The notes: generated by a model from the sequence alone, not told the origin. Shown: positions 6,398 to 28,736, counted from the first letter of the stretch. The stretch: 48,207 nt of DNA from Candidatus Pacearchaeota archaeon (GCA_016186425.1 JACPLR010000023.1:1-48207), one strand, 5' to 3'. Translations and numbers: made by a program.

Positions 6398-7399
6398 TCA
6401 AATCGGCTTAATTACGCAATTCAAGCTCTTTACTTCATTGACTTCATTAAGCCCCTTTCCAAATATAAATACATTGTCATTTACAATATCGTAAATATCG
6501 GGGAACAATGTTACATCATATGCAGGGCATAGATTATTCTTGTTGTAAGGTGTTTTAACCAGTGTGAATGTGTTTGCAGTGAAATCTCTCCATTTTTCCA
6601 ATCCAGCCATTTCTCTTTTAACTCTCACATAAAGTTTTCCTTGATTGTCAACTCTTGCATAGAACTTGTAAGTATCATTTCCAGTTATAATATAATGCAT
6701 GTCAGTGCCTATTGAAAATGGTTCTACAGGCTGGTATTGGGTATAGAGTAATCCGCTTAATACTGAGAATCTATGCTTCTGTATTCCAGCTTCAACTTCG
6801 CGATAGCTATTATCTAATGTTAGAGTTACAGGAGCTCCAGGCTGATTGCTCTCGCCATATGTACAATAAAAATTATATGTATGTCCTTGCTGCAAGCTTG
6901 TTTGTATAGGCTGTTTTATTTCCAAATACCTTTCAGGATTTGGATTAAATATTGTGCTCGCCTGGCAGATTTGATTGAAATTATCGAAATCATCGTCAGT
7001 TATATTAATAATTGTATCATTTTCACGAGGTTGTGGCAAGCATGCAGCATTCAAGCATCCAAATGGGCAATTTTGTACAAATGTATTGGTTGTCTGTGTG
7101 TTGCAGTTATTGTTTAAGCATTGTGGAGTTTGAGTTCTGTTCATAATATTATTTCCATCACAAAATAGCTGGCTTGTTACACTTCCGCATTGTGAATCAA
7201 TTGTACATTGAGGTTGCGGCAAACACGCTCCATTACTGCAACCAAACTGGCAGTTTTGCAAAGTAGTATTTGTTGTAATTGTTGTGCATGTATTAGTCAA
7301 AGTGCATGTTGGTGTTTGAGTAATATTGATTCTGTTATTTCCAGAACAAATTACCTGGCTTGACTGGATTCCACACTGCGCGTTATTTATGCATTGCAA
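6398..7399 (-). pseudogene. C-terminal fragment (piece 4) of the giant Cys-rich surface protein
   Basis: The frame starts inside a Cys-rich repeat (QCINNAQCGIQSSQVICSG) that in intact paralogous units is preceded by a DxCxNPGTxxSxC unit, so it has no natural start. After three or four six-Cys units, residues about 125-333 form a different, non-repetitive beta-rich domain (YNFYCTYGESNQPGAPVT, FYARVDNQGKLYVRVKREM) that ends NCVIKPI and TGA. This is probably the C-terminal domain of the original protein. Compared with intact units about 19 nt are missing at the junction with piece 3 (7387-7399), which shifts the frame. Confidence 0.6.
7257..7394. repeat. 138-bp exact direct repeat, copy A
   Basis: Bases 7257-7394 match 9502-9639 without a difference that I can see. 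The repeat is inside Cys-rich coding units. Its protein-upstream edge (7394) coincides with the frame break between pieces 3 and 4. Confidence 0.75.
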
Positions 7400-8097
7400 C
7401 TATTCACAGTTCCTGGATTTACACAAATGTCAGTTGTCTGCGCATTATTATCATTGCAGTCATTATTTGTTATGCATCTTATATTATTGTGCTGGCAGAA
7501 GCTCTGTTGTGTTCCCGGATTTATGCAAAGATCCTGGGTATATGCATTATTGTCATTGCATTCAGCATCTGTAAAACATATTGGTCTTGGAAGGCAGGCT
7601 GCATTAGCACAACCATACTGGCAGGCCTGAACTAACAAATCATTTGTCACACTTGTGCAAAAATTATTTGCAGTGCATGTAGGTGTTATAGTTCTGTTAA
7701 CTAGATTATTTCCAGAACAGACTAAAATACTTGCCATACTTCCACACTGAGCATTATTAATACACTGCAATAAATCATGTCGGCAGAAACTATTAACAGT
7801 TCCAGGATTTACACAAATGTCTCTTGTCTGCTGGTTATTATCATTGCAATCAACATTTGTGAAGCATATTATTGTTTCATGCCTGCATTGATTATTCACA
7901 CATTGATCTATAGTATGATTATTATTATCATTACAATCTAAATCCTCATCACATTCTCCAATTTGTGTGAATACACAAATTCCATTACTGCATGAATCCT
8001 GAGTATTTGCATTATTATCATTGCAATCCTGTATTAATCTAGGTGTTCTGCTTACAACGCAGTTGCTTTGCAGTGTTCCAGGATTTACACAAATGTC
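7387..8097 (-). pseudogene. Middle fragment (piece 3) of the giant Cys-rich surface protein
   Basis: The frame is open from 8097, although the first ATG is only at 7899. It reads CVNPGTLQSNCVVSRTPRLIQ, then repeated units of the form CxNDxDCNDNNxxTxDxCxNPGTxxSxC, and stops at NPGTVNSCNA-TAA. The part before 7899 has clear Cys-rich homology, so the ATG at 7899 is not a true start. At its 5' side about 14-16 nt are missing relative to the paralogous unit near 10190 (KTFQNSTCINPGTLQSNC). At its 3' side about 19 nt are missing. It would have been an extracellular disulfide-rich stalk. Confidence 0.6.
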
Positions 8098-9659
8098 TTA
8101 TAAACATCATTCAGCGAACAGAATTCTCCATCAATAAATCCAGTCACTCCGCACTCTAAATCATTCAAACAATTTACTTCAGTATTCAAACAATAACTTT
8201 GAGGTGTTGAAGGATTTACACACTGGTCAACAGTTCTCACATTATTATCATTGCATTCATTGTCATTATTACATTCAATATTAGGTATTATACACACTTC
8301 ATTATTGCATCCATACTGACATGTTTGAACAACATTATCTGTTGTAATTGTTGTACATGTATTGCTGGCAGTGCAGTCTGGTGTTTGAGTTCTATTAACT
8401 CTGTTGTTCCCAATACAAATTATATTACTTATTTGTGTTCCACACTGAGCATCATTTATGCATTGTAATAAATTATTTTCACAGAAACTCTGCGGAGTTC
8501 CAGGATTTCTGCATATATCCTGTGTTTGTGAATTATTATCATCACATTCATTATCATTATTACATTCAATTGTCTGATTTACACAAACCAATTCACAGGT
8601 ATTATTTCCAAGGTTTTCATAAAGCTGGATTATTCCATTATAGTTGTCAACAAAGAAATACTGCCCATTAGTTATTTGAGCCATGTCTTTCAAAACCTGC
8701 TCGTTAATTTCGTTTTTCTTTCCAAATCCGACAGTTATTATCATAACTCCTCTGTTTTTGGCATAATTTGCAGCGCTGATTGAAGATTCAATATCAATAG
8801 GATCTGTGAATGTTCCTGTAGTATCTTGTGAATTTGCAACAGTTGGCGCTCCGTCTGACAAAAATATTATGACCTTTGGCGCAGTATTTCTTCCCTGGTT
8901 GATTAGCTTGTCGACAGCAGCAATTATGGATTGATTATAATTTGTATCAGCATTTCCGTTTGCATATAATTGGGTTATTCCAGCATTTATTACATTAAAG
9001 TTGCTTGTCAAGCCAACTTCATTGACAACATCTGTTGAAAAAGTGCTTAATCCTATTTTTGTTCCGCTGTTTTTGTTTAAAGCAGCTTCAGCAAGTTTTG
9101 AAGCAGCGTCTCTCGCGCTTTTTATTTTTGTTATTCTCTGGAACCTATTATCTGCAGGAGGATCTAGATAGCGATTCATGCTTCCACTTCTGTCAAATAC
9201 CAACTCAAAATCCAACGCCCCACCAGAACATATTTCTGTGCATATCTGCCCTTCTATTATACAAGTTGACGAACATCCATCTCCATTAATTAAATTTCCA
9301 TCATCGCACTGCTCTCCGCTTTCTCTAATTCCATTACCACATACTGGTTGTATAGGATTATGTACACATTGTGATTGTGGAGTTCCAGGATTCAAGCAAA
9401 TATCCTGTGTATTTGGATTATTGTCATTGCATTGCGCATCATTACTACATTCAATATTCGGCTGGATACAAGCGCCATTTACACAACCATATTGGCAATT
9501 CTGCAAAGTAGTATTTGTTGTAATTGTTGTGCATGTATTAGTCAAAGTGCATGTTGGTGTTTGAGTAATATTGATTCTGTTATTTCCAGAACAAATTACC
9601 TGGCTTGACTGGATTCCACACTGCGCGTTATTTATGCATGCAGCGGAGTATTTACGCAA
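8085..9659 (-). pseudogene. VWA-domain fragment (piece 2) of the giant Cys-rich surface protein
   Basis: Starts with Cys-rich units, then a Myxococcus-type Cys-rich repeat (CGNGIRESGEQCDDGNLING), then a von Willebrand factor A domain (about residues 148-345) with MIDAS motif DRSGS and a conserved FLSDGAPT strand, then further Cys-rich units. The frame ends at SLNDVYKTFV-TAA inside a unit. VWA domains bind metal and mediate adhesion. The apparent start MRKYSAA is an artefact: the sequence before it is frame-shifted coding sequence for NCVNTPLQCINNAQCG, and adding one A near 9639 would restore it. The domain itself is intact. Confidence 0.65.
9502..9639. repeat. 138-bp exact direct repeat, copy B
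   Basis: Same 138 bases as 7257-7394, 2245 bp away. Its protein-upstream edge coincides with the one-base frame break between pieces 1 and 2. Confidence 0.75.
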
Positions 9660-11362
9660 TTGCTGTTTATTGTTCCTGGATTATCACATTGATCACTTGT
9701 TTGAGAATTTCCATCATCACAATCAGCATTTGAATTGCATTCTATAATAGTATAGTTGCATTGATAATTAATACACTGGTCAATTGTCAAAGCATTATTG
9801 TCGTTGCAATCCACATTATTAATACATTGTATAGGATTATGCACACACTCGGCTTGCGGTGTTCCTGGAGATAAACAAATATCTTGTGTATATGCATTAT
9901 TATCATTACAGTCAGCGTCGTTGTTGCAAGCTGGCTGATTTAAACAAGCTCCATTGCTGCAACCAAACTGGCAGGTTTGAATTAAAACAGCTTCGTCTTC
10001 AGGATTGCTTACACAAGAATTATCACTGCATCCCCTGTCTGTACAAACCCTATTTTGATAAACGCTATTATTTAAGCAATATCTCGCTCCAACATCACTG
10101 CAGGAATCTTCTCCGCATTCATTTACTAATAAAGGATTTTGAGTTACAACGCAGTTGCTTTGCAGCGTTCCAGGATTAATACAAGTTGAATTCTGGAAAG
10201 TTTTTTGAACATCATCAGCTGAGCAAAATTCCTGTCCAAGAAATCCTGTGAAACCGCAATCACTATTTGTCAGGCAGTTTACTTCTGTATTTCTGCAAAA
10301 ACTATCTTCATCTCCCGGATTAATGCATTCATCAACTGTTCTGTTGTTATTGTCATTGCAGTCGCTGTCAGATGAACATGGAATAGGTATGTATTCGCAA
10401 GTGTGATCCTCTTTACACTGGTCAATTGTTCCAGCATTATTGTCATTGCAGTCAGCATCAACATTGCATTCAACGCAATTTCCATTGAAGCAGGCATTAG
10501 TGCATTCCTGAACTAATGTTTTATTCTGAGGCACTCCAATACATTGGGCATTTAAGCTTCCAGGATTCTGGCAGCTGTAATCAACATTGTCTCTGAAAAT
10601 ATTTTTTCCTTCACAATAAGGGTCTCCAATAGAATCATCTGAACAATCATTGTCGTTTGAGCAAGCTGTTGCAACAAATGCCGCACATTCTGAGAAAAGC
10701 TGCTTTGCCTCCGGAGTCCAAAAATCAGACTCTATAATCCCATAGAAACACATCTTTCCGTCTGCAAATTCTCCATTGTTTAATCTGCTGCTTGCATTTG
10801 CATAAGCTATTACAGCCCCCAAATCTCCGTCTAAGTTCCCGACATGAGTTCCTGCTATTTCTTCAAATCCAGGAGCTTTGTTATTGTGGTCAAGATAATA
10901 ATAAGGAATTGCAACAGTGCTTCCCGGATTAAAAAAAGCATCAGTATAAACCTGCAGAACCTGTATAAAATTTCCAAATTTTTTTACCTTAAGAGGCTGA
11001 GTTCCGCCTATTTTGGACACTCCATCAGCATCAGTTATATCCCAGTCTCTTCCATGATAATAATTTGCGATAATGCTTGGAAAATCATTGACAGGTATTA
11101 ATCTTGGATTTGAGAATTTTTCATCACCAACGAAAATTAATCTATACTGCGAGAAATCTGTCTGTGAAGCCTGGGATGATTTTATTGTATCAACGCTTAA
11201 TCCCAAGTTATTGAAAACTTCTATTACATTGGGGTCAATCTTGAAATTTTTGTTGTAAATGTATGCAACATCTGCAGCGCTTGCAAAAGAAATAGATAAC
11301 AGGCTGATAAATATAATGCAACACAATAGGAGTATTACACCCCTTTTTTTAATGCCCCTCAT
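9632..11362 (-). CDS. N-terminal part (piece 1) of the giant Cys-rich surface protein, with GATase-like domain
   Basis: Residues 1-30 are a signal peptide (MRGIKKRG, then a hydrophobic core ending SFASA). Residues about 31-235 form the same glutamine-amidotransferase-like domain as in the 1346-aa protein: VAYIYNK, then FSQYRLIFVGDE, then MCFYGIIESDFWTPEAKQLF. From about 236 on there are Cys-rich units (CSNDNDCSDDS, CNDNNAGTIDQC, CINPGTLQSNC) until a frame break at 9639. Joined with pieces 2-4 the product would be about 1650 residues: signal, GATase-like, Cys-rich stalk, VWA, more stalk, C-terminal beta domain. As it stands it ends without a membrane anchor. Confidence 0.65.
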   Translation of the reverse strand: MRGIKKRGVILLLCCIIFISLLSISFASAADVAYIYNKNFKIDPNVIEVFNNLGLSVDTIKSSQASQTDFSQYRLIFVGDEKFSNPRLIPVNDFPSIIANYYHGRDWDITDADGVSKIGGTQPLKVKKFGNFIQVLQVYTDAFFNPGSTVAIPYYYLDHNNKAPGFEEIAGTHVGNLDGDLGAVIAYANASSRLNNGEFADGKMCFYGIIESDFWTPEAKQLFSECAAFVATACSNDNDCSDDSIGDPYCEGKNIFRDNVDYSCQNPGSLNAQCIGVPQNKTLVQECTNACFNGNCVECNVDADCNDNNAGTIDQCKEDHTCEYIPIPCSSDSDCNDNNNRTVDECINPGDEDSFCRNTEVNCLTNSDCGFTGFLGQEFCSADDVQKTFQNSTCINPGTLQSNCVVTQNPLLVNECGEDSCSDVGARYCLNNSVYQNRVCTDRGCSDNSCVSNPEDEAVLIQTCQFGCSNGACLNQPACNNDADCNDNNAYTQDICLSPGTPQAECVHNPIQCINNVDCNDNNALTIDQCINYQCNYTIIECNSNADCDDGNSQTSDQCDNPGTINSNCVNTPLHA

Positions 11363-21503: not shown

Positions 21504-22562
21504 ATGATGAAACTCCTGTTTATTACAAAATCATATTCTATGAATAAAGGGGGAAAAGAAATATATAATTATAATCTTGTTAAATCTCTAAAAGACAATA
21601 AATTTAATATTAAATTAATTGCAACTTATGGGAATATCTTAAACTTGATATGGTTTTATCCATATTCATTGATAAGAGGCTTTTTTTCTTTGATCTTTAA
21701 TAAAATTGATTACATTCATATTGGAGATACTTTCACACTTCCAGTAGGTATGGTTTTGGCAGCTTTATTTAATAAAAAAATATCAGTTACTTTATATGGA
21801 TTAGACATAACTTATCCTTCTGAAGTCTATCAATCAGTTTTTATACCTTTAGTTAAGAAATGCGATAAAATTATTGTTATTAGCGAAGCAACAAAACAAG
21901 AAGCAATTAATAAAGGAATTAGTAAAGATAAACTAGTTGTCATGCCTTGTGGAGTGAATATAGATGATTTTTCAATAAATAAAGATAAGAATAAATTAAA
22001 AGAAGATATTGAAAAGAAATTCAATTTAAACTTAAAAGATAAAAAAATACTCTTAACAGTTGGCAGATTGGTTAAAAGAAAAGGTGTTGAATGGTTTATC
22101 AATGAGATAATGCCAAAATTAGAGAAAAGCTATATTTATTTAATTTCAGGAGAAGGAAAAGAAGAAGAAAATATAACAAAGGCTATAAAAAATAATAACC
22201 TAGAAAAGAGAGTGTTTTTGCTTGGAAGAGCGGATTTTGAAACACTTAAAATACTATATAATATTTCAGATGTTTTTGTTATGCCAAATATAAAAGTTGA
22301 AGGAGATATGGAAGGTTTTGGTATTGTTGCTATAGAATCTGCATCTGTTGGATTGCCTGTTGTTGCTTCAGATATTGAAGGCATAAAAGATGCAGTTATA
22401 AAAAATAAAACAGGTTATTTAGTAAAAGAGAAAAGTACTAAAGAGTTTATTAAATCAATTAAATCAGCCAATATGCTAAACAAACAAACCATGAAAACAT
22501 TAATAAAACAAAACTTCGCTTGGGATAAGATTGCCCAAGAGTATGGGGGTGTTTGGAGATGA
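21504..22562 (+). CDS. GT4-type glycosyltransferase (352 aa)
   Basis: GT-B fold. The N-terminal half includes HIGDTFTLPVGM and SVTLYGLDITYPSE. The C-terminal half has the donor-binding region: LLTVGRLVKRKGVEWFI, LISGEGKEEENI, VEGDMEGFGIVAIESASVG and LPVVASDIEGIKD, the EGFG plus E-x7-E pattern of retaining GT4 enzymes. It adds a sugar to a lipid-linked or surface glycan at the cytoplasmic face. GGGGGAG lies just before the start; MKLLF at 21507 may be the true first residue. Its TGA overlaps the next ATG (ATGA). Confidence 0.88.
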   Translation: MMKLLFITKSYSMNKGGKEIYNYNLVKSLKDNKFNIKLIATYGNILNLIWFYPYSLIRGFFSLIFNKIDYIHIGDTFTLPVGMVLAALFNKKISVTLYGLDITYPSEVYQSVFIPLVKKCDKIIVISEATKQEAINKGISKDKLVVMPCGVNIDDFSINKDKNKLKEDIEKKFNLNLKDKKILLTVGRLVKRKGVEWFINEIMPKLEKSYIYLISGEGKEEENITKAIKNNNLEKRVFLLGRADFETLKILYNISDVFVMPNIKVEGDMEGFGIVAIESASVGLPVVASDIEGIKDAVIKNKTGYLVKEKSTKEFIKSIKSANMLNKQTMKTLIKQNFAWDKIAQEYGGVWR

Positions 22563-23542
22563 AAATAATTGTCTGTACTAGAGACTTAGATTTTGGAGTA
22601 GGAAGCGTTGTGAAAAATGAATTAAAAGATATGGACAAAGATAAAAAAATTAGAAAAGTAATTGTGATAGGTCCAAAAAAATTAGGTGGATATAGTGATA
22701 AGATTAAATTTGAAATAATAAATAATATTGGAAGATTTTTTATTACTAAAGAACCTTATTTTGCATTTAAATGTAACTATAAAATAAAGGAAATCTTGAA
22801 AAAAGAGGAATTTGATAGGATTAATTTACATTTTCCAATATATGCTGAAAATTTTGGCCCAAAATTAATTATTAAATTTCATAGAATACATAAAGCTAAA
22901 GTTCCTATAAAAGAGGTTAAGGAATTTATGAGTCTACTATTTCATAATATATACTCTTATTTTGATTACAGAACAATAAAATATTCAAATCAGGTCCTAT
23001 TTGTTAGTAGAGCGTCATTAGAAGAGGCTAAAAAATTATATCCTAAATTTAAATCAAAATTCTTATTTGAACCTAATAAGGTAGATAGGTCAAGATTTTT
23101 TCCATTATCTATTAATAAAAGAGAGAATCTCAAAAAACAATTAGGGTTTGGAGATAGAAAAAAGAATCTATTATATGTGGGGAGGTTAGATCCTCTAAAG
23201 GGGATTATGAATCTAATTAAAACCTTAGATGAATTAAAAGATCCTAAATTAAGGTTAATAATTATTGGTGATGGATTTCTTAAAAATAAGGTAGTAAAGT
23301 ATCCGTTTGTAGTTTATTTAGGGAGAATTTCAAATGAAGAACTTTATAAATATTATAATATTGCAGACCTATTTATTTTACCCTCACTTTATGAAAATGC
23401 CCCAATGTCAATACTAGAAGCAAAGGCTTGTGAATGCAAAATATTGGCGACCAATGTTGGAGATAATATGTATTTATTAAATAAAGGTCAGATTTATTTA
23501 GATAATAATGAACTGAAGAATAAACTAAAGAGGTTAAAATGA
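22559..23542 (+). CDS. GT4-type glycosyltransferase (328 aa)
   Basis: The start is chosen at ATG 22559, overlapping the previous stop; TTG 22553 is also possible. The N-terminal domain is short and basic (KIIVCTRDLDFGVGS). The C-terminal donor domain has LLYVGRLDPLKGIMNLI, IIIGDGFLKNKV and SLYENAPMSILEAKACE, where the Glu pair of GT4 is in ENAPMSILEAKA. It is slightly shorter than average for the family. The stop overlaps the start of the next gene by four bases, so translation is coupled. Probably adds one sugar in the same glycan pathway as its neighbours. Confidence 0.85.
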   Translation: MKIIVCTRDLDFGVGSVVKNELKDMDKDKKIRKVIVIGPKKLGGYSDKIKFEIINNIGRFFITKEPYFAFKCNYKIKEILKKEEFDRINLHFPIYAENFGPKLIIKFHRIHKAKVPIKEVKEFMSLLFHNIYSYFDYRTIKYSNQVLFVSRASLEEAKKLYPKFKSKFLFEPNKVDRSRFFPLSINKRENLKKQLGFGDRKKNLLYVGRLDPLKGIMNLIKTLDELKDPKLRLIIIGDGFLKNKVVKYPFVVYLGRISNEELYKYYNIADLFILPSLYENAPMSILEAKACECKILATNVGDNMYLLNKGQIYLDNNELKNKLKRLK

Positions 23543-25020
23543 GATTAAAAAATAAACTTTTATATTGTCTTTTTGTTTTAATTATTTTAATTTATTTATT
23601 ATTTTATTCAGTTTCTTTTTGGAATTATCATTTACCTTTTTATGGTCAAGGTTTTGATTCTTATCAATATATGGGCTTATATAAAATTAGTGAAGATAAG
23701 ATATTTAACTCTTTTATTTATTCAGAAAATCTTTTTCCAGGATTATATTCTGATGATTTTCATTTTGGAATTAATATTTTTTTATTTATTATCTTGAAAA
23801 ATATACTAGGAATAAACAATTTACAGACAATATTTATAGTGGGGTTGTTTGGGTCCTTACTATTTTTAGTTGCTATTTACTTTTTCTTAAAGAAAGTTAT
23901 GGATAAGGACACTAATAAAATTATCCTTACGATAATAATATATCTAATTTTTTCAGTAGGTTCATTAAAATGGCTTGGTAGATTTAATTCCTTTTTTGAT
24001 TTGTTAGTTATCTCATCTTACCCATCAAACATTGGAATTTCTTTAATGTTAATTCTATTAGGGCTTAATATAAATATAGTTAAATTAAATTTTAAATTAG
24101 TAACTTTAAACATATTAATATTTTTTTTGCTATTTTCCTCACATATTTTAACTGGATTTATTTATTTATTATTATTCTTTATATTATTTTTTACAAATTC
24201 TATAAAAGTTAAAAAAATAAATAGAAATTATATATTTATATTTTTGATTTATATAATGATACTCTCAATATTGCTTTTGTGGCCATATTATAATTGGCTA
24301 GATTTTTTTATTAATTCTAATCCAATTCAAACCGAGAGTCTTAGAGAATTACCATTAACTATTCAAGAATCGTTATCAATTTTAGGTATACTTATGATAA
24401 GTTTGGGTTCTTTAATTAAAAAACCTAAAGATAACTTATTCATGATTATATGGATTTTAGTCTTTTTTATAGTTACTTTATCCTATTTAACCCCATTCAG
24501 AGTTTCTTCTTACTGGAGATTCTTAAGTTTTATAAAAATACCTTTAATGATATCAACGACTCTACTCTTATTTTATCTCGATAATAAGAAATTAAGAGTA
24601 TTTATGATATGTATAATAATAATTACTTCTTTTTTAGCTATTTCTTTTAATATTAATGAGTTAAAATTGAAAGAGAATAATTTTGATAAGGTGTTAAATA
24701 TTAATAATCAGCTAAAATCTAATTCTAGAATATTTGGAGATCCCTTTATCTCGTATGGATTACAAGGACTTGGCGATCAACAAACCTTTTTTGTTGCTGA
24801 AGGGCATACAGGAAATATTAAATCCCAGAAAATAAATAAAGAGAGATTAAAAATATGGGATAGTGGATGTAATAATCTTACTAAAGAATTTTATATTCAA
24901 TTTGACTATTTTATAACATATAAAAACACGAATTGTAAGTCTAATTTTTTAAAGGTTTTTGGTTCAATAAATTATACAGACTATAAAGGTATTGAAATAT
25001 ATGAAATATCAAAAATTTAA
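23539..25020 (+). CDS. Polytopic GT-C-like membrane glycosyltransferase (493 aa)
   Basis: About 10-12 hydrophobic helices. After the first helix comes an extracellular-type loop with an acidic motif (GQGFDSYQYMGLYK) like the loop-1 acidic residues of GT-C enzymes, and a second (LYSDDFHFGINIF). The last hydrophobic span ends near residue 380, followed by a soluble tail of about 110 residues with three Cys. GT-C enzymes take sugar from dolichol phosphate on the outer face. Its end overlaps a 35-codon frame at 25001. Its base composition is even more AT-rich than its neighbours. Confidence 0.7.
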   Translation: MRLKNKLLYCLFVLIILIYLLFYSVSFWNYHLPFYGQGFDSYQYMGLYKISEDKIFNSFIYSENLFPGLYSDDFHFGINIFLFIILKNILGINNLQTIFIVGLFGSLLFLVAIYFFLKKVMDKDTNKIILTIIIYLIFSVGSLKWLGRFNSFFDLLVISSYPSNIGISLMLILLGLNINIVKLNFKLVTLNILIFFLLFSSHILTGFIYLLLFFILFFTNSIKVKKINRNYIFIFLIYIMILSILLLWPYYNWLDFFINSNPIQTESLRELPLTIQESLSILGILMISLGSLIKKPKDNLFMIIWILVFFIVTLSYLTPFRVSSYWRFLSFIKIPLMISTTLLLFYLDNKKLRVFMICIIIITSFLAISFNINELKLKENNFDKVLNINNQLKSNSRIFGDPFISYGLQGLGDQQTFFVAEGHTGNIKSQKINKERLKIWDSGCNNLTKEFYIQFDYFITYKNTNCKSNFLKVFGSINYTDYKGIEIYEISKI

Positions 25021-25108
25021 GCATTCCAAACTCTTCCCCCAGTCAAAATGTGCCAGAGAGACCTTGAAGATTTACAAGCAAGTTTTGAAAGAAAAAATAA
25101 AAAAATAA
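25001..25108 (+). CDS. Short CARETLK-tail protein or remnant, left boundary copy (35 aa)
   Basis: The frame MKYQKFKHSKLF, then PQSKCARETLKIYKQ, then VLKEKIKK ends at TAA 25106-25108 and overlaps the end of the GT-C gene. The same peptide tail occurs at 25534-25600 (YDKCVRETLKVYQEVMKNNQ) and 27637-27712 (SQSKCARETLKVYKQVMKND), and the DNA of the first and third is about 90% identical. The conserved Cys-containing amphipathic tail suggests the C-terminus of a small protein family. Here it may be an intact mini-protein or a leftover. Confidence 0.45.
   Translation: MKYQKFKHSKLFPQSKCARETLKIYKQVLKEKIKK
25022..25090 (+). repeat. About 70-bp direct repeat, left copy
   Basis: TTCCAAACTCTTCCCCCAGT, then CAAAATGTGCCAGAGAGACC, through AAGCAAGTTTTGAAA. 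It matches 27644-27705 with only a handful of changes. Together they bound the 2.6-kb toxin/caspase block inside the glycosylation cluster. Confidence 0.65.
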
Positions 25109-25124
25109 ATTCTATTTGTAACAA

Positions 25125-25292
25125 TTACTTAGCAAAAAATGCTAAATTTGCCATGATAAGATATATAAATGCGCAAGAAAACATTATTACTTTTTGCCAA
25201 CTTTTTGGAACAATAAATCCTATTCCAAATAAAGATAATGCTACTCCTAGCAAAGTTGACCCATTAACAAAAGTGGGTGTTATAGTTATCAT
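25125..25292 (-). CDS. Small two-helix membrane protein (55 aa)
   Basis: ATG at 25292 (MITITPTFVNGSTLL) to TAA at 25125-25127. Helices lie at about 12-28 and 34-53 with a VPKSWQK turn, and it ends FFAK. On the minus strand a box A-like GCATTTAAATAAC lies near 25336-25348, followed by GGAGGAG upstream of the start. A convincing promoter, leader and hydrophobic frame support a gene. It runs against its neighbours. Function unknown. Confidence 0.55.
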   Translation of the reverse strand: MITITPTFVNGSTLLGVALSLFGIGFIVPKSWQKVIMFSCAFIYLIMANLAFFAK

Positions 25293-25399
25293 TTTGTTAT
25301 TTTGACTCCTCCATAGAGAATAAAAATACTCAAGTTATTTAAATGCTTACTTTTATACTTTTTTTATTTTTTTAAAATATATTAATAAAACAACTTAAC

Positions 25400-25600
25400 C
25401 CTCTTCTTCACCCCCCAACCCTACTTTTACTTAGGCTTGATAATTTCAGGAACAACGCTAATTTTGTGTTTGGCTTATTTGGTTTATGATTGGAGAAAAA
25501 GAGGAAAAAAACCTTAAACAATCCAAAAAATTCCCTTATGATAAATGTGTAAGGGAGACATTGAAGGTTTATCAAGAAGTTATGAAAAATAACCAATAAC
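25400..25600 (+). pseudogene. Frame-shifted small membrane protein with CARETLK-like tail
   Basis: One frame gives a single TM segment (YLGLIISGTTLILCLAYLVY, then DWRKRGKKP and a stop near 25516). The next frame, after an A7 run at about 25501-25507, gives LKQSKKFPYDKCVRETLKVY and QEVMKNNQ. Read together they make a natural small protein: helix, basic patch, conserved tail. No start codon is seen upstream of the helix. It looks like a broken relative of the tails at 25001 and 27637, and hints at what the full protein looked like. Confidence 0.5.
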
Positions 25601-25625
25601 CACATTGATAATATAAATAAGGCAT

Positions 25626-25646
25626 AAATTTTCTTAATGAAAATTT
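25626..25646. repeat. Family F hairpin
   Basis: GGCAT then AAATTTTC-TTAAT-GAAAATTT, a perfect eight-base-pair stem, followed by AAAC. The same type occurs at 42602. Confidence 0.55.
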
Positions 25647-25709
25647 AAACATTGTATGCTTAAAAGATAACAACAAAAGTCTTATAACTCCTTTATTCTT
25701 ATTTTGATT

Positions 25710-25919
25710 ATGGAAATAGTTTTTACAGAACATTCAAAAGAGAGGATGCAGATAAGAAAAATAACAGAAGAAGAAATTAATGAAGCTATAAAATATCCAG
25801 AAGAAGTAAGAAAAAAAGAAGGAAAATATTATGCAAGAAAGAATATTGGAAGAGCCAATATAGAAGTTGTTTACGAAAAAGAAAAATATATAAAGATCAT
25901 AACTATATATTACTTATAG
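25710..25919 (+). CDS. DUF4258 protein, toxin-like (69 aa)
   Basis: Starting at ATG 25710 (MEIVFTEHSKERMQIRKI), the sequence has the DUF4258 pattern: HSKERM helix, ITEEEINEAIKYPEE, GKYYARKN, and the final strands IEVVYEKEKYIKIITIYY. The family has a RelE/BrnT-like fold and is often paired with a DUF2283 protein, as here, 22 nt downstream. A toxin role (RNase) is inferred from the fold and pairing. A TTG at 25704 could add two residues. First gene of the boundary-repeat block on the plus strand. Confidence 0.75.
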   Translation: MEIVFTEHSKERMQIRKITEEEINEAIKYPEEVRKKEGKYYARKNIGRANIEVVYEKEKYIKIITIYYL

Positions 25920-25941
25920 ATTACAAAGGTAAAAATAAAAA

Positions 25942-26151
25942 ATGAAAATAACATTTGACAAGGAAGCAGATGCAATGTATATAGAAGTAAGCGAGGGAGC
26001 TTTTGCTAAAAATAGAAAGATTGATGATGAAACTATTATAGATTTAGATAAAAATGGGAAGATTATAGGAATAGAATTATTGAATGTAAGCAAAAGAATG
26101 TCAAGTGATTTTCTTTCAGATATAAGGGTTCAAAACTTGGTTTCTTCTTGA
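25942..26151 (+). CDS. DUF2283 protein, antitoxin-like (69 aa)
   Basis: The order DKEADAMYIEVSEGAF, then DETIIDLDKNGKIIGIELLN, then VSKRM is the DUF2283 signature, a small beta protein. It follows the DUF4258 gene by 22 nt. The pair is widespread in archaea and bacteria and behaves like a toxin-antitoxin module in arrangement. It ends in TGA, which shows that TGA is a stop in this genome. After it lies a family F hairpin. Confidence 0.75.
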   Translation: MKITFDKEADAMYIEVSEGAFAKNRKIDDETIIDLDKNGKIIGIELLNVSKRMSSDFLSDIRVQNLVSS

Positions 26152-26169
26152 GATTTACAGCTAAATAGA

Positions 26170-26262
26170 TGATATTTTTGAAAATATATAATACTAAATT
26201 TCTCATTGGAGATAAATTTAACCTACTTTAATAGTTTTTTAAGTTGGTTTTAAATTAGCAAT
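26170..26262. repeat. Family F copy
   Basis: TATATAATACTAAATTTCTC, then ATTGGAGATAAATTTAACC (hairpin about 26196-26219), then TTTTTTAAGTTGGTTTTAAA, the same right-hand phrase as in the 37.55-kb copy. Confidence 0.55.
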
Positions 26263-26445
26263 CTGTTTATAACTCTTTTCCTCATCTTTTGTTCTCCCTC
26301 TTCCCAAATAACATTTTCCACAAAAACATAACTTTAAAAATCCCTTCCTTATCTTTCTACCATTAATATAATGCCAAAAAATGCCAAAACTAAATGCCAA
26401 AATGCCAATTAATACTAAAGACAAGAAGCGGATACTTATAATTAA
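26239..26445 (-). other. In-frame TM continuation after the caspase-like gene's TAG
   Basis: Directly after the TAG of the caspase-like gene the same frame stays open: LIISIRFLSLVLIGILAFSF makes a helix, then a basic patch, then CFCGKCYLGRGRTKDEEK and a TAA. There is no ATG; TTG 26424 is the only fair start. It may be a separate small membrane protein, the product of readthrough that would tether the protease, or a chance frame. Confidence 0.35.
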
Positions 26446-27105
26446 CTATGAATTCCCGCTTAAAAAACTAGCAGCAGAATTTCCATGCAAAACTTGCCCG
26501 TCAAAATTATTCCAAAGAGCTTCAGCTATTTTAAATGATTCTGAATCTGCTTTTGCAAGAATTTTTCTTATATTTTTTAACATTTGTTTCTTTGCATTCT
26601 CGTTTGCATAAGATGCTGAATTTCCTTTTATTAATGATATTGGAACAAGATTAGAAGGCTCTAAAAATAACCTTGCTGTATTGTCTTTTAAGGGATTGCC
26701 TATCCATTGTGTATCTACATAGAATTGAAATGGCCTGTCATAACCAATAAAACATCCATCTTTGGAATTTTTTGTGCAGGCAACACCGAGAACTGCGGCA
26801 GCATGGCAAGATCTCGCATAAACTATTCTATCTTTGATTAGAAAATCATTAACTCCAGCTTCTACTAAAATTTCTTTATTTCCGCTTATAGCTTTATCTG
26901 ATCCATGGCCATTAAAAATAACCATTTTATAATCTTGCTTCTTGATTATTTTTTCAAATATATCTTTAACTGCATCTTTATCTTTAAGAGGCTTAATTTC
27001 TATATTTGCCTTATTGGCTGCATCTTCAATTTGCTGTGAAAATTGGGATAAATATTCAGTTACATCATCATGTCTTGGCATGGTTATCAGAATTCCTTTT
27101 TTCAT
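26446..27105 (-). CDS. Caspase-like (CHAT/C14-type) cysteine protease (219 aa)
   Basis: The start MKKGILITMPRHDD (ATG 27105) is preferred because it directly follows the stop of the gene upstream; a 14-residue longer start at 27147 would overlap that gene. The fold pattern is clan CD: strand YKMVIFNGHGS with the catalytic His (about 80) and strand IVYARSCHAAAVLG with the catalytic Cys (about 113). A variable C-terminal half follows, with FQFYVDTQWIGNP and a helical end. It has no signal peptide or TM, so it is cytoplasmic. Such proteases act in defence and regulated cell death when triggered by partner proteins. Here the partners are probably the two small proteins upstream in the same operon. 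Confidence 0.75.
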   Translation of the reverse strand: MKKGILITMPRHDDVTEYLSQFSQQIEDAANKANIEIKPLKDKDAVKDIFEKIIKKQDYKMVIFNGHGSDKAISGNKEILVEAGVNDFLIKDRIVYARSCHAAAVLGVACTKNSKDGCFIGYDRPFQFYVDTQWIGNPLKDNTARLFLEPSNLVPISLIKGNSASYANENAKKQMLKNIRKILAKADSESFKIAEALWNNFDGQVLHGNSAASFLSGNS

Positions 27106-27106
27106 T

Positions 27107-27343
27107 TTATATAGTTGTAATAGCCCTTGTAAAGTCTCCCCTCGCAACAGCTTTCATAAAAGAAATATGCGAATTAATTATTTGTCTGCCTATAGAATCC
27201 CCATCTTTAACATGCCTTATCATCTCTTCTTTTGTTAAAGCTTTATCGCTGCCTATGGCTAGTTTAAGATTGGAAGGAATCGTTTCTATTCGCATTATAA
27301 CAACTTCTTTCAATTCCTCTTTAATTTCTTTTTCTTCACTCAT
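27107..27343 (-). CDS. Small protein of the caspase-like operon, partner 2 (78 aa)
   Basis: After an acidic start (MSEEKEIKEELKEVVIMRIE) comes TIPSNLKLAIGSDKALTKEE and MIRHVKDGDSIGRQIINSHI, then FMKAVARGDFTRAITTI. It looks helical apart from one strand. The start overlaps the previous stop by four bases, and the protease ATG comes right after its stop, so all three are translated together. No family is recognised. It may be an effector-associated or adaptor protein that controls the protease, an inference from the operon alone. Confidence 0.7.
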   Translation of the reverse strand: MSEEKEIKEELKEVVIMRIETIPSNLKLAIGSDKALTKEEMIRHVKDGDSIGRQIINSHISFMKAVARGDFTRAITTI

Positions 27344-27534
27344 ATTATTTTAATATCCTCCAATACTTTCAAAATTTTCTTTCCTAAAGCAGTATTTTCC
27401 TCTATCTCTATAAATGCAGTATTCCAAGTGTATGGCTTTTTTTCAATAACTACTATTATATCTTTCCTTAACCCATCAGGAATATCTGCGTAAATCTTAA
27501 GAAATTTAGCCCTTTTATCTTCTTGCTTTGCCAT
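27340..27534 (-). CDS. Small protein of the caspase-like operon, partner 1 (64 aa)
   Basis: MAKQEDKRAKFLKIYADIPD, then LRKDIIVVIEKKPYTWNTAF and IEIEENTALGKKILKVLEDI. The VVIEKKPYTWNTAFIEI stretch looks like a beta hairpin of the kind 'x-G/K-PYTWN-x-A', followed by a helix. It is first in the operon and overlaps the next gene by four bases. Upstream on the minus strand is an AAACTTAAATATATAC-type box A near 27545-27560. No family is recognised; a sensor or substrate role is possible. Confidence 0.7.
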   Translation of the reverse strand: MAKQEDKRAKFLKIYADIPDGLRKDIIVVIEKKPYTWNTAFIEIEENTALGKKILKVLEDIKII

Positions 27535-27636
27535 AAATAGTTAATGTTAAGTATATATTTAAGTTTAACGCTCTTGGTTTTTGCAATATTTTGCCTACTA
27601 TTATAACTTATTCCAATATACAAACCTCTCTGTTTT

Positions 27637-27712
27637 TCAAAACTCTTCTCCCAGTCAAAATGTGCCAGGGAAACCTTGAAGGTTTACAAGCAAGTTATGA
27701 AAAATGATTGAT
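27637..27712 (+). pseudogene. CARETLK-tail remnant and right boundary repeat
   Basis: The frame FSKLFSQSKCARETLKVYK, then QVMKND, ends in TGA with no start codon upstream (a stop lies about 50 nt before). The DNA at 27644-27705 is the right copy of the roughly 70-bp direct repeat whose left copy is at 25022-25090. Immediately downstream a box A (CTTTTTAAATACTCC, about 27734) starts the second half of the glycosylation cluster. Confidence 0.5.
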
Positions 27713-27785: not shown

Positions 27786-28736
27786 ATGGAAATTAGCTAT
27801 AAAAAAATCATAGGTATTTTGATAATTTTAGTTTTATTAGCTTTGCTTATATATTATGCAAGCACTAATATATCTGATTTTAAGCAGTTAAAAATAGAAA
27901 ATCCCTGGTACATCTTTCCAATTGCCATTCTGTTTCTTTTGCTATCTCTTACTAACGGGCTTGTAATAAAATATTTTACAGAGCCTTTTAATATAAAGTT
28001 AAAAGCAAAAGAGTGGTTTGGCTTGTCAATAATCACTTCTTTTTACAATATGATCACTCCTTTCAGGGGGGGAGCAATAGCAAAGGCAGCTTACCTGAAA
28101 AAAAAGCATAAGCTGGCTTACACTGATTTTTTAGCAACATTTTCAGGAGTATATGTCATTACTTTTCTTGTCGCAAGTTTCTTCGGTTTATTTTCTTTTA
28201 GCCTGCTTTATTTATATCAGGGAATATTCAACGTGATTGTTTTGCTAGTCTTTTCAGCAGTTTTCTTTCCGCTGTTATTTATTGTTTTATTTTCTCCATA
28301 TATTCCTCCTGTAAAACATAAACACTTAAATAAAATAATTCAGGTTATTAACGGGTGGCATACTATCAGAAGAAACAGAAAAATAATTGCAGAAATTTCA
28401 ATTATAACTTTAATACAGCTTATTTTATCCCTTATTTCAACAATTTTATCCTTTAGGGTATTTGGAATAAATATTGGGGTGATTGAATCAGCATTTTTAG
28501 TGTCTATAGGCAGTCTTGCAATGCTGGTAAGCATAACTCCAGGTTCTTTAGGAATTGCCGAAGCAATAGCTGTTTTTTCAGCGCTTATAATCGGAATAAC
28601 TCCTGCCCAGTCTCTTACAGTCGCGATTCTTGGAAGGGTTATTTCAGTGGCAATCATATTTATTCTAGGGCCGGTATTTTCTTTCATCCTTATTAAACAC
28701 AGGCCCAGAAAAATTTCTTATAAAATTAGGCGTTAA
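27786..28736 (+). CDS. LPG-synthase-type flippase-like membrane protein (UPF0104, 316 aa)
   Basis: Eight or so TMs with the family landmarks: TPFRGGAIAKAAYLKKKH after the second to third helix, a central Arg/Lys loop (GWHTIRRNRKIIAE), and SITPGSLGIAEAIAVFSALI near the end. Family members include the transmembrane half of lysyl-phosphatidylglycerol synthases and many archaeal proteins next to glycosyltransferases, where they are thought to move lipid-linked sugars or lipids. A promoter (box A about 27734-27746) lies before it. The next gene starts 6 nt after its stop. Confidence 0.8.
   Translation: MEISYKKIIGILIILVLLALLIYYASTNISDFKQLKIENPWYIFPIAILFLLLSLTNGLVIKYFTEPFNIKLKAKEWFGLSIITSFYNMITPFRGGAIAKAAYLKKKHKLAYTDFLATFSGVYVITFLVASFFGLFSFSLLYLYQGIFNVIVLLVFSAVFFPLLFIVLFSPYIPPVKHKHLNKIIQVINGWHTIRRNRKIIAEISIITLIQLILSLISTILSFRVFGINIGVIESAFLVSIGSLAMLVSITPGSLGIAEAIAVFSALIIGITPAQSLTVAILGRVISVAIIFILGPVFSFILIKHRPRKISYKIRR

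Follow-up and report, generated by a model that had tools for sequence, protein, structure and literature searches.

Orphan 3' ends of glycosyltransferase genes accompany predicted toxin-antitoxin and peptidase-like modules in a glycan gene cluster of a Candidatus Pacearchaeota archaeon

Some phage-like elements insert into a protein gene at its 3' end and restore the gene in doing so, as e14 does in icd of Escherichia coli. In archaea, integrons are known, attC sites in Nanoarchaeota among them (PMC9668308), and the deletion-coupled insertions of Haloquadratum surface genes have been set against site-specific islands, which produce direct repeats (PMC3119063). Here we analysed a stretch of 48,207 nucleotides (nt) from a Candidatus Pacearchaeota archaeon (JACPLR010000023.1; hereafter the window), which is the whole of contig C14 in a genome of 869 kb and 29 contigs (genome G000). 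A glycan gene cluster in this window is split by a block that carries a DUF4258/DUF2283 gene pair and a three-gene operon for a peptidase-like protein, and three copies of a direct repeat accompany these genes. We read the repeats as orphan 3' ends of GT4 glycosyltransferase genes that mark successive insertions of small modules, each with a copy of a gene end, at one spot of the glycan cluster, and we estimate the probability of this reading at about 0.68.

The arrangement found in the window and in related archaea resembles that of e14-type elements in that a gene end is duplicated on either side of the insert and the gene remains complete. However, the inserts described here are single operons of 0.4-2 kb without an integrase gene, they are stacked in arrays, and at some loci the duplicated piece is the 5' end of the gene. 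The Haloquadratum deletion-coupled insertions (PMC3119063) are similar in that islands of archaeal surface genes are swapped at precise borders and truncated genes are present, whereas in our case it is the copies of gene ends that are the mark.

The initial annotation of this DNA had described two direct repeats at the borders of the block and had taken them for the tail of a small protein, possibly remnants of a target gene. The two repeats are real: copies 1 and 3 (Table 1) are 91% identical over 67 nt (E 6e-20 within the window), and when they were aligned the similarity was at background level directly beyond these 67 nt on either side. The copies number three, not two, as a further one with 70% identity lies inside the block and had been missed. 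Their in-frame translations are, in order, SKLFPQSKCARETLKIYKQVLK, SKKFPYDKCVRETLKVYQEVMK and SKLFSQSKCARETLKVYKQVMK. The only other hit in the window's genome was a weak one, to the end of a GT4 gene on a different contig.

Outside this genome, in a search of 139 relatives, the best match to the repeats was the extreme C-terminus of a 365-aa GT4 glycosyltransferase. We then used a profile of the GT4 C-terminus based on 23 intact GT4 genes chosen by their Pfam domain; genes found via the repeats were excluded because circularity had to be avoided. Among the 1796 reading frames of the window the three repeats occupied ranks 1-3 (E 8e-6, 1.3e-4 and 3.3e-4), while the next-ranked frame reached E 0.057 and the best of 20 codon-shuffled windows 0.03. 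This ranking by an independent profile identifies the repeats, at the level of sequence comparison, as orphan 3' ends of GT4 genes, and the idea of target-gene remnants is thereby borne out. The small-protein reading, on the other hand, had to be abandoned, as copy 3 lacks an in-frame start codon and what the repeats match is the end of GT4 genes. Moreover, the nearest upstream GT4 gene lacks just the tail that the repeats encode: its BLAST alignments stop at query residue 326-329 of 329, with 27-42 residues left in the intact homologues. The best spacing for an exact rejoining of this gene with tail 1 was ambiguous (0 or 5 residues), and therefore we claim only that its tail is missing. A weak match to the GT4 tail in a congener (G006) was chance-like (E 0.1). 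Separately, we observed an orphan GT4 tail (L028:4395-4544, G091:C41) in an archaeon from another family, where it lies in a cluster of nucleotide-sugar and glycan genes.

Modules flanked by copies of gene ends are a recurrent insertion pattern in related archaea. The density of near direct repeats was 0.99 per 10 kb around the peptidase operon compared with 0.17 per 10 kb in control regions. A repeat shared by the upstream and the downstream flank was detected at 6 of 37 peptidase operons, with the window uncounted, versus 4 of 400 control positions, and at 3 of 17 DUF4258 pairs versus 9 of 500. The control positions were drawn, with overlap, from 20 regions in 12 genomes. When read case by case, most of these flank repeats were the ends of neighbouring genes, and repeat lengths across the loci ranged from about 45 to 280 nt; some repeats, e.g., those at L156 (33 bp) and L171 (a non-coding repeat), were not assigned to a gene end.

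Several loci illustrate the bracketing by 3' ends. At L160 the peptidase operon has a PD-(D/E)XK gene's 3' end on one side and an 81-bp copy of that end (96% identity) on the other, and at L162 three copies of a VanZ-like gene's 3' end are separated first by an MNT-HEPN pair and then by the operon. A DUF4258/DUF2283 pair stands between the mnmA 3' end and its copy at L207, whereas at L049 it is the peptidase gene's own 3' end that is copied beyond an MNT-HEPN pair. At L196 a piece of a surface-protein-like gene is present four times with three modules in between.

At other loci the separators are 5' ends. Six 5'-end fragments of GT4 genes separate the modules at L211 (7565-13528, G030:C96), namely DUF4258/DUF2283, MNT/HEPN-like, two NYN and AF2212-like/PIN modules, and the contig ends inside the repeat. 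This array follows a GT2 gene whose product is 41% identical to the GT2 of the window, and the GT4 fragment repeated there shares 51% identity with the N-terminus of the GT4 encoded at 21504 in the window; thus, an array of the same style is present in a related glycan cluster of another genus. Similarly, six methyltransferase-like 5'-end fragments, recognised by eye, lie between the modules of L051 (1-8000, G030:C16), which are the peptidase operon, DUF5615, NYN, MNT-HepT and RelE-like genes; here the contig starts in the repeat. As a separate observation, apparent copies of the 5' end of a RadC-like gene at L047 (G026:C25; 4120-4173, 5343-5396 and 6610-6653) stand ahead of a KilA/Bro-like gene and ahead of the peptidase operon.

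The comparison of congeners revealed an empty site at thrS: within the window's genus, this gene has received an insert accompanied by an additional gene end. In G003 one thrS 3' end is followed by small genes and then by a conserved MKIQ gene, whereas in the window's genome DUF4258, an MqsA-like gene and an extra thrS 3' end come between thrS and the small genes, which again precede the MKIQ gene. The arrangement in G002 is the same as in the window's genome, and its two thrS ends are identical at 48/48 compared bases. A scan of 504 kb of G003 yielded ten near repeats; in the inspection, which left out contigs L226 and L230, a pair of gene fragments at L229 (97% identity) was seen to bracket an NYN-domain gene, and the rest were paralogues or within-gene repeats. 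We also observed that members of a family of 60-85-aa proteins (MKxHII...) are stacked behind thrS (L205:6389-6809, L233:12861-13347) and that their number varies between congeners.

The repeat copies diverged as coding sequence, as the differences between them are concentrated at silent sites. In nine copy pairs from the window and five other loci, the differences at codon positions 1, 2 and 3 numbered 25, 9 and 45 (p 6.5e-6; pairs sharing one copy are not fully independent), and the copies at L211 show eight synonymous differences over 17 identical residues. This pattern points to ends of homologous genes that evolved in different lineages, and not to exact target duplications that decayed in place.

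We propose that a one-operon module enters at the end of an ordinary gene and brings a copy of that end, which would leave modules and fragments in alternation. Most likely, a circular or transferred piece consisting of the module and a homologous gene end would recombine with the resident gene end in a single crossover, although a recombinase acting in trans could be the agent of the same step. After the crossover, one copy would complete the gene and the other would remain as an orphan beyond the module, and since a single crossover of such a piece is envisaged, both the 3' and the 5' cases would be covered. For the window, two or more such steps followed by decay would be needed, the upstream GT4 gene having lost its own tail. 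The circular intermediate, the crossover step and this order of events are inferred. To judge from their families and from the genes found next to them, among them MNT-HEPN, NYN, PIN and restriction-type genes, the modules presumably function in defence or addiction, and the role could be antiviral.

A number of observations weigh against successive insertion. No empty site was found for the window block itself: in the two congeners the contig of G004 ends at the right flank gene and G006 has other genes upstream. There was no detectable flanking repeat at 31 of the 37 operons, and the p values for the flank comparisons are approximate and indicative only, because the control positions overlap. 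No recombinase was identified, and a genome-wide search for one was not made. In addition, the occurrence of 5' ends at some loci and 3' ends at others is hard to reconcile with a single site-specific recombinase, and homologous recombination would work poorly on copies that are 70-80% identical, unless their divergence came later.

In an alternative reading, repeated gene replacement in a hypervariable glycan cluster would have left the GT4 tails behind and the modules would have settled later in non-essential gaps, the repeats playing no role in movement. Decay of this kind fits the truncated GT4 body, the possible membrane-protein tail by copy 2 and the orphan tail in G091, and the deletion-coupled insertion in Haloquadratum surface genes is in line with it (PMC3119063). 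However, it leaves unexplained why the same bracketing is seen at thrS, mnmA, VanZ, PD-(D/E)XK and other non-glycan genes that keep an intact copy, and it does not account for the enrichment over control positions. We regard replacement followed by decay as rather unlikely, and successive insertion remains the preferred reading.

The initial annotation had proposed that the whole 2.6 kb between repeats 1 and 3 were inserted as a unit, as a single mobile defence cassette, and copies 1 and 3 are indeed the closest pair (91%). However, the third copy lies inside the block, and the DUF4258/DUF2283 pair and the operon are on different contigs in G026, G027 and G030. Moreover, the stretches of DNA that resemble other genomes break off at the pair (L121, L124) or at the operon (L088, L048), none of them extending across both, and each of these two modules recurs elsewhere in unrelated places. 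As the modules occur apart and the similarity stops at the borders of one of them, a single cassette is very unlikely, and we consider the block to be composed of two independent modules, DUF4258/DUF2283 and p64-p78-peptidase. Insertion flanked by target-gene ends is supported by the data.

Tandem one-operon cassettes that are rich in toxin-antitoxin genes and have repeats between them recall integron arrays, including the archaeal ones (PMC9668308). However, the separators in our loci are fragments of neighbouring protein genes, that is, coding gene ends which differ at each locus, and no attC fold was found in the repeats, their folding being no better than that of shuffled sequence (z 0.55 to -1.2); an integron-type array with attC sites is therefore highly improbable. 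Transposition with a long target-site duplication would also place direct repeats around the modules, but we give it hardly any credence, as the repeats are variable in length, the window block has no terminal inverted repeats and the copies differ like diverged coding sequence.

These results suggest an undescribed route of movement for small defence-type modules. Much more tentatively, archaea of the DPANN group might possess a cassette system without an integrase: each conflict module would be carried along with a piece of the end of a host gene, and recombination at this gene would let modules insert, stack up and be exchanged, giving arrays like those of integrons with ordinary protein-gene ends as the 'attachment sites'. 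No description of conflict cassettes bounded by gene ends was found in the open literature searched, the coverage of which is incomplete. If such a system exists, it would explain how conflict modules, toxin-antitoxin ones included, spread without visible integrases among archaea with tiny, reduced genomes, duplicated gene ends would provide a sequence signature for finding such modules, unknown ones included, and the gain of defence modules would be tied to the variability of glycan clusters.

The DUF4258/DUF2283 pair noted in the initial annotation is present, with Pfam matches to both families (Table 1). Among 55 relatives, and with the locus of the window included, we found 18 DUF4258 loci, of which 15 have a DUF2283-type partner (two of these are longer and were recognised by eye) and three an MqsA/MazE-like one. 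A toxin family thus adjoins a small partner recurrently across genomes, which is the gene arrangement of type II toxin-antitoxin systems, and the pair is predicted to be such a module. The BECR-fold toxin families include DUF4258, for which DUF4258-MqsA fusions are also listed (PMC11980606), and as in other type II modules the toxin family is combined with an exchangeable small partner. In the literature searched, no report of DUF2283 as an antitoxin was found.

The second module is a three-gene operon; the designation 'protease' in the initial annotation is without a family match and depends on an invariant histidine and cysteine. The 219-aa protein has homologues in 44 of 371 genomes of the phylum, and p64 and p78 lie ahead of it in each of the complete loci that were examined. 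The three proteins had no match in Pfam, NCBIfam, PADLOC or PHROGs, and none of the five block proteins matched the PADLOC anti-phage models. Because His67 (NGHG) and Cys100 (ARSC) are invariant across 34 sequences of the family, the 219-aa protein is suggested to be a putative clan CD cysteine peptidase; the order of the two motifs, histidine before cysteine, is that of caspase, gingipain (C25) and CHAT. Unlike these peptidases, the protein matches no family model, and its hhalign comparison with C25 was weak, no better than the best of 100 shuffles. The structure model, predicted for two sequences, had a predicted local distance difference test (pLDDT) score of 51, and no fold match in PDB was obtained at E 1e-3. 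Searches of phages, plasmids and viral contigs yielded no homologue of the peptidase. The operon represents a widespread, unannotated gene set.

Table 1. Features of the block, its flanks and the thrS locus. Coordinates refer to the window unless a locus is given.
Feature	Coordinates	Strand	Basis or remark
GT4 glycosyltransferase, C-terminus about 25-40 residues short compared with homologues	22553..23542	+	PF00534 E 8e-25; BLAST alignments
493-aa membrane protein gene, between truncated GT4 body and tail copy 1	23539..25020	+	Open reading frame
GT4 3'-end remnant, copy 1	25001..25108, core 25024-25090	+	Repeat search and GT4-tail profile
Possible membrane-protein C-terminal remnant, out of frame with copy 2, weak	25389..25514	+	Translation only
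GT4 3'-end remnant, copy 2	25486..25599, core 25521-25587	+	Repeat search and GT4-tail profile
DUF4258 protein, predicted BECR-fold toxin	25710..25919	+	PF14076 E 3e-9; recurrent pair
DUF2283 protein, predicted antitoxin	25942..26151	+	PF10049 E 2e-16
Caspase/gingipain-like (clan CD-type) putative cysteine peptidase, 219 aa	26446..27105	-	Invariant H67 and C100 in 34 homologues
p78, conserved small partner protein	27107..27343	-	Neighbour of the peptidase in all complete operons examined
p64, conserved small partner protein, first gene of the operon	27340..27534	-	Conserved position in complete loci
GT4 3'-end remnant, copy 3, without in-frame start codon	27607..27711, core 27636-27702	+	Repeat search and GT4-tail profile
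LPG_synthase_TM gene, first conserved glycan gene right of the block	27786..28736	+	PF03706 E 8e-34
Second thrS 3' end, window's genome	L117:1084-1136; locus L205:5777-9225 (G000:C25)		DUF4258/MqsA-like pair between thrS ends

Family matches confirmed that glycan genes lie on both sides of the block (GT2, two GT4, LPG_synthase_TM and PMT/EpsG-like genes). The LPG_synthase_TM gene and the genes downstream of it are conserved in two congeners (G004 and G006), and the 493-aa membrane protein on the left flank had no homologue among the 55 relatives. Elsewhere in the window, dense, long and diverged direct repeats (7048-10291) extend across the minus-strand genes at 6398-11362, which probably encode repetitive proteins or paralogues.
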